Shown: piece by piece, positions 5,935-61,048 of the stretch
Numbering within the stretch: position 1 is the first letter of the stretch
Layout of the letters: every line of letters begins with the position of its first letter
NCBI GenBank assembly: GCA_016213735.1
Contig: JACQZU010000014.1
Span: 248,001 to 312,000, forward strand
DNA length: 64,000 nucleotides
Direction: 5' to 3'
DNA from: Acidobacteriota bacterium
GTDB taxonomy: Bacteria > Acidobacteriota > Holophagae > Holophagales > Holophagaceae
Notes under the pieces: model-generated
Told to the model about the DNA's origin: nothing
Databases searched by the model: none
What the model saw: only the letters and a program-made list of their open reading frames with translations
Made by a program: the position numbers and the translations under genes

Positions 5935-6060
5935 AGGATGTAAAAAAAGAATACACTTGCCTCAAGAATGGTCCCGGAAGGACATCGAAAATTTTTAAGT
6001 TTGTTGTTTTTCAATATTTAAATTCTTGGAAAATTTCTTTTCCGCGCCATCACCTTTTCT
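5935..6060. promoter_or_regulatory. AT-rich divergent promoter region between aat and the HicB-like gene
   Basis: About 125 bp that are strikingly AT-rich against the surroundings, with runs such as TCGAAAATTTTTAAGTTTG near 5985 and CAATATTTAAATTC near 6011. It separates two divergent genes, so at least one promoter must lie here. No single -35/-10 pair could be chosen with confidence. The TCGAAAATTTT stretch resembles the module seen near 53.3 and 60.9 kb, though without its TAGAWT half. Confidence 0.45.
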
Positions 6061-13630: not shown

Positions 13631-13669
13631 GGATGCCTCCTTTCAAGGGCACCCAAGGACAGCTAGTCA

Positions 13670-13850
13670 CATGCCAAATTTTAAAAATAAATAAATCAAT
13701 CTTTACAAAATTTTTTTAATTTATTTTGTAAAATAAATGTTACAAAATTTTTAATTTATTAATTAAACATAAAAAAATCATAAATTAAAATTTGTAATGA
13801 AATAATTAAAATACAAAAAAAGAAGTCATTATTTTTGAGAATGGGACTGA
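13670..13850. promoter_or_regulatory. Extreme AT-rich intergenic block with direct and inverted repeats
   Basis: About 170 bp with very few G or C bases in a GC-rich genome, between the divergent comEA and msrBA genes. It contains a near-direct repeat, TTTACAAAATTTTTTTAATT at about 13702 and GTTACAAAATTTTTAATT at about 13739. It also has an inverted repeat of TTTTGTAA and TTACAAAA around an 8-nt spacer near 13725-13748. Likely a divergent promoter region and perhaps a nucleoid-protein binding patch. Confidence 0.6.
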
Positions 13851-16245: not shown

Positions 16246-16250
16246 GGATG

Positions 16251-16318
16251 GGTCCGAGGAGCGCTGCGAGGCTTCCGTCCCAGGCTCGGACCATCCCTGA
16301 TTCCCAACGGCGCTCACC
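16251..16318 (+). ncRNA. S-adenosylhomocysteine (SAH) riboswitch
   Basis: The sequence matches the SAH riboswitch consensus: CCGAGGAGCGCTGC near the 5' end, CAGGCTCGG in the middle and AACGGCGCTCACC at the 3' end. P1 forms between GGTCCGAG (16251-16258) and CTCGGACC (16285-16292). The pseudoknot forms between GAGCGC (16259-16264) and GCGCTC (16310-16315). It sits 70 nt upstream of ahcY, the classic target. Binding of SAH turns the downstream gene on, so the hydrolase is made when its toxic substrate accumulates. Confidence 0.93.
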
Positions 16319-16388
16319 TTCCAGCCCCTGGGGCCCGGACAGGTGGGCCGCCCCGCCGTCCCCCCCCGTTCCTGAACAGGTGGACACC

Positions 16389-19397: not shown

Positions 19398-20927
19398 TCA
19401 GAGGCGGAAATCGGCTGGCCTCAGACCCAGCTTCTCCATCCTGGAGATGAGGGTGCTGGGAGCCAGGCCGGAGATGGCCGCTGCGCCGTCACCGCCGGTG
19501 ACCTTCCCCCGGGTGGAGCGAAGCAGCGATTCGAAGTAGGCCCGCTCGTGCGTCTCCCAGGTGGACATCCTGCCCTTCCGGCCCTGGAGGCCCGGAAGCC
19601 CGTCGGGGAGCACGAGGTCTCGCCCCGTCGTGAGGATCGCCGCGCGTTCCAGCACATTGAAGAGTTCCCGGACATTGCCGGGCCAGGCGTAGGACTGCAG
19701 TTTCCGGAGCCCTTCGCGTCCCAGGCGGATGGGGGGGCGGCGGTTTTCCCGGGCGAAGCGGTCGAGGAAGGACTGGGCCAGGGGGGGGATGTCCTCCGGC
19801 CTTTCCCGGAGAGGGGCCAGGTGGACCGGGAAGACGTTCAGCCGGTAGTAGAGGTCTTCCCTGAACTGGCCGCGGGCCACCATCTCCTCCAGGTTCCGGT
19901 GGGTCGCGGCCAGGAGGCGGACATCCACCTTCACCGTCCGTTCTCCTCCCAGGGGTTCCAGCTCCCCTTCCTGGAGCACCCGAAGGAGCCGCGGCTGAAG
20001 GTCCAGGGGCAGCTCCCCGATTTCGTCCAGGAAGAGGGAACCTCCATCGGCCAGCTCGAAGCGACCCTTGCGGCTGCCTGCCGCCCCGGTGAAAGCCCCC
20101 TTCACATGGCCGAAGAGCTCGCTCTCGATGAGGTTGGCTGGGAGGGCGCCGCAATTGACCTTGATGAAGGGCTTGTCGCGGCGGGGCGAGAGGTGGTGAA
20201 GGGTCTGGGCCACCTTCTCCTTGCCCGTTCCGGTCTCCCCCGTGATGAGGATGGTGCTGCGGGTGGGGGCCACCTGCCGGAGCTGGTCGAGCACGGCCCG
20301 CATCGCAGAACTCTCGGCCCGCAGGGGTTCCGCCATGAGGCCGGACAGGGCCTGGGCCCGGTGGAAATCCACCTCCTCCACCAGGCGGCGCTCCCGGGCG
20401 GCGAGCTGGGCCAGGTGCTCGGCCTGTTTGAGGGCCAGGGCCAGGAGGCTGGCAAAGGTGCCCACGTGCCGGACCACGCTCTCGGGGTACTGGCGGCAGA
20501 CCATGGCGTCCAGTGTCATCAGCCCGAAGGTCTCCCCGGCGGCCCGCAAGGGAGCCACCAGGCAGCTGTGACCACCCGGGAAATCAAGGAGACCGTGGAA
20601 GGTGTCCTCCCCGGGGTCGCCCTCCTCGAAACTCCGGGCCTGCCGGCTTCGAAGGGCCTGCACCAGGCGGGGGTTCCCCGGGATGGGGATGCGGGCCCCC
20701 ACCAGGGCGGGCGTCACCAGGGGACCGGCCGCATGGCGCACCTCCAGCTCGTCCTTCTTGCGGAGGAGAACGGTGGCCAGGTCGTAGGCCACCAACTGTC
20801 CCAGCCGGTGGAGGGCCCGCTGGATCAGTCCGTCGGGCTCGTCACCGTGGGTGAGAAGTCCTCCGATCTCGTCGAGGATTCGAGCCCCCGTGAGAGCGTT
20901 TTCCAGGCTGTCGGGCACGGGGACCAT
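19398..20927 (-). CDS. Sigma-54-dependent transcriptional activator (GAF-AAA+-HTH)
   Basis: A 509-residue NtrC/NorR/FhlA-class activator. The N-terminal GAF sensor is at about 20-175. The AAA+ domain is at about 205-435, with Walker [15 protein letters not shown] (the sigma-54 contact loop) in [11 protein letters not shown], Walker [11 protein letters not shown] and the arginine-finger region [14 protein letters not shown]. The C-terminal HTH is at about 465-509 ([18 protein letters not shown]). There is no receiver domain, so it probably senses a small ligand or redox state through GAF. It is divergent from the rubrerythrin cluster, whose promoter region carries a -24/-12 element, so it is the likely regulator of that oxygen-defence operon. 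Confidence 0.92.
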
Positions 20928-53286: not shown

Positions 53287-53310
53287 GATCTCCCAGGCCC
53301 GGCCTGGAAA

Positions 53311-53370
53311 ACAAAATTCCAAAAATTTCGAAATTTTTGTTGCTTCTTATTTCGAAAATTTTAGATTGTT
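53311..53370 (+). promoter_or_regulatory. Promoter/operator of the oxidoreductase operon (site B)
   Basis: A 60-bp AT-rich module. It contains a perfect palindrome AAAAATTTCGAAATTTTT (53321-53338) and TTCGAAAATTTTAGATT (53351-53367), the motif shared with sites A and C. TTGCTT (53340-53345) and TAGATT (53362-53367) with a 16-bp spacer make a plausible promoter, placing the start about 20 nt before the ferredoxin start codon. Confidence 0.68.
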
Positions 53371-53388
53371 AGGGTCGGGGGTGGGGAC

Positions 53389-60744: not shown

Positions 60745-60944
60745 GGGCTGTTCTCCTGGAGGATTCCGGGGGGCCGCCCCCGGGCCATTCTCCTCCAGGC
60801 TCCCCCGGGCCTTCCGGGGTCCCCCCGGGTGGCAGCCCTTCGGGTGGCGAACGGTACCGGTGGGAGCCCCGACGGGACGCGGCCGGGTCCCGCACCCCCG
60901 GACCCGGCGTCCCGGACCGGGAGGGAAAAGGGTCGGGTCGAAAA

Positions 60945-61003
60945 GAAAATTCCAAAATTTTCGAAATTTCGATGGAATTTTATTTCGAAAAATTTAGAAT
61001 TAA
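60945..61003 (+). promoter_or_regulatory. Promoter/operator of the permease gene (site C)
   Basis: An AT-rich module closely similar to site B: AAAATTCCAAAATTTTCGAAATTTCG first, then TTATTTCGAAAAATTTAGAATTAAAT. The core TTCGAAAAATTTAGAAT lies at 60984-61000, TAGAAT being a -10-like hexamer. The matching -35 is less clear. About 45 nt upstream of the permease start codon. The remaining gap back to the lipoprotein gene (60745-60940) is GC-rich without recognised features. Confidence 0.68.
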
Positions 61004-61048
61004 ATCTTGAGGGCCACGCCCCGATCCCTGGAAAGAAAGGAAGCGTCC

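Follow-up and report, generated by a model that had tools for sequence, protein, structure and literature searches.

At promoters that depend on sigma-54, transcription requires looping of the DNA and an AAA+ activator that binds upstream, and the upstream activator sites usually lie about 80–200 bp from the transcription start. The TyrR/PhhR box has the form TGTAAA-N6-TTTACA. The sigma-54 consensus is quoted as TGGCACRNNNNTTGCW in a study of Ralstonia solanacearum that reports a need for rpoN1 in natural transformation and credits this to pilA and type IV pili (PMC4371752). Other papers report that PilR sites at pilA promoters bear the hallmark TGT-N11-AGA with GTCT elements (PMC6058289), transformation of Acinetobacter baumannii requires PilR (PMC8088505), and a minor pilin, FimT, mediates the uptake of DNA during transformation (PMC8897410). 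In the literature searched, RpoN influences competence by way of pili, and no description was found of sigma-54 acting directly on comEA. Searches on comEA with sigma-54 or RpoN, on competence in Geothrix or Acidobacteria, and on activators with dprA, covering titles, abstract openings, and few subscription papers, returned no account of direct sigma-54 control of comEA and nothing on what induces natural transformation in Acidobacteriota. The terms “competence” and “comEA” are absent from two RpoN studies (PMC2725144, PMC3162934).

The window analyzed here, meaning the whole 64-kb stretch of DNA (69.2% GC) from a source genome of 3.59 Mb, contains a comEA gene divergent from msrBA with an AT block between them (table 1). 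ComEA was recognized by PF12836 (E 8.6e-23) and by TIGR00426 over its cut-off, TIGR01259 being under its own. The gene behind it encodes a product with no Pfam or NCBIfam match whose structure model (mean pLDDT 82.5) comes closest to EpsH (Z 7.6, rmsd 2.9 over 93 residues) and FimU (Z 7.2, rmsd 3.6 over 108 residues); Z is at least 6.5 for ten entries of pilins or pseudopilins and 4.3 for the next fold, values below 8 being weak evidence on their own, and a Foldseek search with the model gave nothing below 0.001. A minor pseudopilin stands beside comEA in 93 of 167 loci. Next comes radC, overlapping the pseudopilin gene under a mechanically chosen start.

Table 1. Coordinates of the comEA operon and its putative control region in the window
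Feature	Position	Strand	Description
Minor pseudopilin (GspH/FimU-like fold), 178 aa	12748..13284	-	Second gene of presumed operon
comEA, 112 aa	13292..13630	-	Signal-peptide-like start and helix-hairpin-helix DNA-binding domain
Leader, ribosome site within small hairpin (GCCT/AGGC)	13631..13654	-	
Sigma-54-like -24/-12 element TGGCATGTGACTAGCT (GG-N10-GC)	13661..13676	-	AT block ends exactly here
AT block, enhancer region (proposed)	13676..13836	.	Sigma-54 element to just past UAS2; 14 G/C in 161
UAS1, dyad TGTAA-N8-TTACA (family form TGTMA-N8-TKACA)	13727..13744	.	Centre 59.5 bp upstream of -24 T
UAS2, weaker copy, 9/10 consensus positions	13793..13810	.	66 bp above UAS1

The preliminary description had singled out an exceptional G/C-poor patch between comEA and msrBA, and the letters bear this out. 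The AT block is the best-scoring AT segment of the window (8.7% GC), with a score of 119 that is about four times those of the runners-up (30, 29, and 25), and it is the sole 150-base stretch of the window with at most 35% GC. The interval 13670–13850 holds 25 G/C per 181 bases; the functional unit begins slightly below it, at 13661. Two near-identical repeats and a dyad, also claimed earlier, could be located: TTACAAAATTTTT occurs at 13703 and 13740, and TTTTGTAA at 13724 forms with TTACAAAA at 13740 a perfect dyad with an 8-base spacer. Across the source genome, 60-base stretches with at most three G/C occur at two places only, with two of the 12 overlapping hits at the comEA block and the other ten at C19:5599–5667, and exact AT runs of at least 21 bases number nine per strand, three of them inside the block. 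Runs of this length number 3 to 22 per strand in each of ten relatives searched. The 60-base test finds the comEA block alone in G003 and G019 (14/14 and 7/7 forward hits) and no place at all in most family genomes searched. The AT block is genuine and far exceeds what chance would yield in the source genome, though shorter AT islands are present elsewhere.

For comparison, comEA loci were gathered with the ComEA protein as query from 60 relatives and then 77 family genomes, and 15 further comEA stretches were added. Of 66 loci listed from Holophagaceae, whose members are environmental bacteria, 61 were usable; L016 (short upstream), L025, L027, and L028 (all of genus g2), and L089 (comEA not parsed) were dropped. 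Close upstream of comEA stands GG-N10-GC with a TGGCA-type -24 box, as expected of a sigma-54 promoter. The putative elements of relatives (TGGCACAACCCTCGAT and similar) lie between -43 and -50 relative to the start codon in family loci, and the element score is reached in 58 of the 61 loci against an expected 0.46 (mean of 200 mononucleotide shuffles); those below it are L023 and L026 (both g5) and L058. From the promoter geometry, the comEA transcript is predicted to start near 13650. The stem core of the leader hairpin is nearly invariant in 38 g4 (Geothrix-group) loci, one pair being T-A in 30 and C-G in 3; as an RNA switch the hairpin was rejected, its covariation being too low.

With their centres 59.5 and 125.5 bp above the -24 T, the dyads are placed as upstream activator sites of a sigma-54 promoter would be. 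Counting dyads with at least 9 of 10 consensus positions, UAS1 is found at 57–64 bp in 39 of the 61 loci (mean in dinucleotide shuffles 0.12) and UAS2 at about 121–129 bp in eight (shuffle mean 0.12), in a test that is partly circular because the consensus was derived from part of the counted loci. Alternative spacers give 0–4 of these loci and alternative offsets at most two, the second site excepted. Fewer than nine positions are kept at UAS1 in 22 of the 61, including both g3 and four of the five g5 loci, and in genus g2 neither dyad nor -24/-12 element was found. In a GTDB collection that consists largely of the same genomes, the best dyad of 50 offsets falls at 59–63 in 44 of 46 usable Holophagaceae loci (48 in total); of the remaining 29 usable loci (28 that are not Holophagaceae, and L141 of g2), L152 alone shows a dyad of at least nine positions. 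In whole-genome searches, G003 and G018 lack the exact dyad; G034 and G008 have it once, at comEA; and it is found twice in the source genome and G030 and four times in G022, each of these three having one copy at comEA. Two pattern searches for dyad plus -24/-12 element in the same 31 genomes gave 23 matches against 12 in the reversed control: five at comEA, three at a pseudopilin-dprA operon in sister family f2, and 15 elsewhere.

The comparison also covers the sister families f2 and f3. In f2, a dyad of nine positions and a -24/-12 element accompany five of seven comEA copies (L223–L227), pairs that arise 0 or 1 times in 300 shuffles each; of the remaining copies, L228 has an element with a more distant dyad and L229 neither. 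At the f2 pseudopilin-dprA operon, whose dprA was recognized by PF02481 and whose following gene we take to be topA-like, four of five genomes (G037, G043, G045, and G039) combine elements like TGGCAAAGCTCTTGCA with a single dyad or two, and no such pair was found there in G041. No dyad plus -24/-12 pair was found at dprA in any of 16 Holophagaceae loci. In f3, G038 and G040 have the element only, and a candidate pair 87 bp apart in G042, at 192 and 288 bases beyond the start lying farthest upstream, was left uncounted. The spacing counts against an enhancer, as dyad and element stand 71–78 bp apart at f2 comEA and 86 bp apart in G044 of f3, against 60 in Holophagaceae. What these comparisons show is where both putative signals stand, that they are conserved, and that the pair recurs in a sister family at another competence operon.

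We consider the AT block probably to be the enhancer (upstream activating) region of a sigma-54 promoter that drives comEA and the minor pseudopilin, judging by sequence comparison. RNA polymerase with RpoN would wait in a closed state at the -24/-12 element, and a bacterial enhancer-binding protein (AAA+ activator) would bind about 60 bp above it at UAS1 and, probably, about 126 bp above it at UAS2. Bending or looping of the AT-rich DNA in between, possibly aided by a nucleoid protein, might let the activator reach RpoN and open the promoter; DNA would then be taken up only in response to the activator's signal. What we infer comprises transcription, the binding of proteins, looping, the signal, and whatever role AT-richness itself may have. 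The earlier idea that the patch could bind a competence regulator gains in so far as the dyad looks like a positionally conserved activator-type site before a sigma-54-like comEA promoter.

The locus resembles promoters of the sigma-54/enhancer-binding-protein class in its GG-N10-GC element, its paired dyads 60–130 bp upstream, and the presence in the genome of rpoN and 13 strong activator domains. It differs from known sigma-54 enhancers in that the target is comEA itself, that the enhancer has so low a GC content in a window of 69% GC, and that GA replaces GC at -12 in most g4 loci. Whereas rpoN1 of Ralstonia is credited with acting through pili, the signals here directly precede comEA-pseudopilin and, in f2, pseudopilin-dprA. 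PilR sites likewise have TGT half-sites upstream of the sigma-54 promoter of a pilus-related gene, but the comEA dyad is a symmetric TGT-N12-ACA and lacks the TGT-N11-AGA pattern. The TGT-N12-ACA geometry is also that of the TyrR/PhhR box, which L007 matches exactly; the window copy has one mismatch, however, and g4 copies mostly start TGTCA.

A sigma-54 enhancer at comEA would give a concrete route to an activator, to its signal, and perhaps to a transformable Geothrix, and would make uptake of foreign DNA a regulated, on-demand trait. We propose only tentatively that Holophagae have a dedicated sigma-54 switch, in which one activator serves comEA and the minor pilin (and dprA in the sister family) from a single exact site in some Holophagaceae genomes, and in which the AT composition itself works as a silencer or looping element.

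AT-richness is widespread at this site. In 54 of the 61 usable Holophagaceae loci, GC content does not exceed 37% over the 160 bp above the -24 element and is 49–73% in the DNA 200–400 bases upstream. The sequence half of the refuting condition set earlier, absence or normal GC in close relatives, gave a mixed outcome: the patch is there in this majority and GC-normal in the five g5 loci (53–67% GC), with weak patches in L007 of g9 (49%) and L087 of g10 (41%). It is the composition that is conserved, not the sequence, mean ungapped identity in 42 g4 loci being 0.40–0.52 in the block versus 0.85 in the promoter. The 39 dyad-bearing loci form a natural series with the site at a fixed place and surroundings from 7 to 58% GC. 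Some GC-richer relatives retain the promoter, and a small number also the dyad, in the absence of AT-richness. Counting against an enhancer is its absence in g5, where L024 nevertheless retains a perfect dyad. Such loci bear on the possible though rather doubtful alternative that AT-richness is passive, the DNA between sites and promoter being free of GC selection and drifting to AT while the short sites alone work: L024 (58% GC) and L007 (49%) both keep the dyad at 10/10, and AA/TT steps have no 10.5-base helical phasing (z -0.3), a result that also led us to reject curvature by phased A-tracts. (Common descent within g4 may lie behind a 13-base AA/TT signal, z 11.3.) Set against passive drift are the upper edge of the block, which is sharp in most loci, and the rarity of long AT runs in the source genome, which means that unconstrained intergenic DNA is not usually this AT-rich. 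A second alternative, in which the block serves mainly to nucleate a nucleoid or xenogeneic-silencing protein that holds comEA silent and the sigma-54 signals within it come into use on release, would account for composition being kept without sequence in the g4 loci, but comEA is retained without a strong AT block in g5, L007, and L087, and we regard it as unlikely. It is highly improbable that the block serves as the msrBA promoter region or, as first suggested, is the scar of a recent insertion: it does lie between the divergent genes, but msrBA is beside comEA in one of 167 loci (the source genome only) within the flanks covered, and most Holophagaceae genera have the AT block at the corresponding position.

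The AT block stays with comEA and the msrBA neighbour does not, so that the block belongs to comEA rather than msrBA. The neighbour on the far side of the block varies, an SAH riboswitch standing there in L005 and L009 (g4). The window has an SAH riboswitch at 16250–16322 (Rfam RF01057, 56.3 bits), before an adenosylhomocysteinase-like gene; unlike in L005 and L009, two genes separate it from the comEA block. A replication origin or partition site was rejected, given that the block stays with comEA and that comEA lies about 0.54 Mb from a contig end in the single-contig genomes G003 and G034.

The proposed enhancer calls for RpoN and an activator. The source genome encodes rpoN (G000:C13:127672–128148, E 2.4e-60), as do 35 of 37 genomes; the two lacking it, G007 and G016 (both g8), are also without comEA. 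The g8 genomes G007, G016, and G024 are reduced (0.9–1.2 Mb) and have no ComEA match; rpoN is absent in the two of them searched and dprA in the one searched. The 13 strong sigma-54 activator domains of the source genome are among 16 matches. PilR appears unlikely as the shared activator because two tandem pilA-like genes, at C7:344025 (L240) and C7:344671 (L239), carry sigma-54-like elements (TGGCACGAGAATTGAT and TGGTACGGGAATTGAC, with GA at -12) and no dyad (best 7/10); the pilin gene beside PilR lacks the dyad as well. A gene for a GAF-AAA+ sigma-54 activator lies in the window at 19398–20927, about 6 kb from comEA, its nearest NCBIfam models being NorR and NifA, both below cut-offs. It was set aside as a candidate, tblastn matches being confined to 13 of 167 loci, all outside Holophagaceae, with flanks of mostly 1.5–3 kb. 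In other Acidobacteria (L142–L144, L147, L157, L160, L162, and L170–L172), an AAA+ activator-like gene follows about 1.5 kb behind comEA, with a prepilin-like gene in between in L142, L162, and L170. Sigma-54 activators normally carry GAFTGA; at this position the activator-like gene has RTATGV or RAATGV in nine of ten cases, the stretch being missing in L147. This candidate too was rejected, with no clear counterpart among the activators of the source genome.

AT islands as such do not mark sigma-54 enhancers as a general rule: among 20 other islands (six in the source genome and 14 in G003, G071, and G034), one has a borderline -24/-12 match nearby. The AT islands of G010 and G006 are not comEA blocks. 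Other islands lie at 983–1215 of L280, in G071, with a score of 131 that is above the comEA block of the source genome, and at 1481–1547 of L031, in the source genome, upstream of a groES-like gene. Three weaker ones are in the window at 5988–6041, 53308–53371, and 60941–61005.
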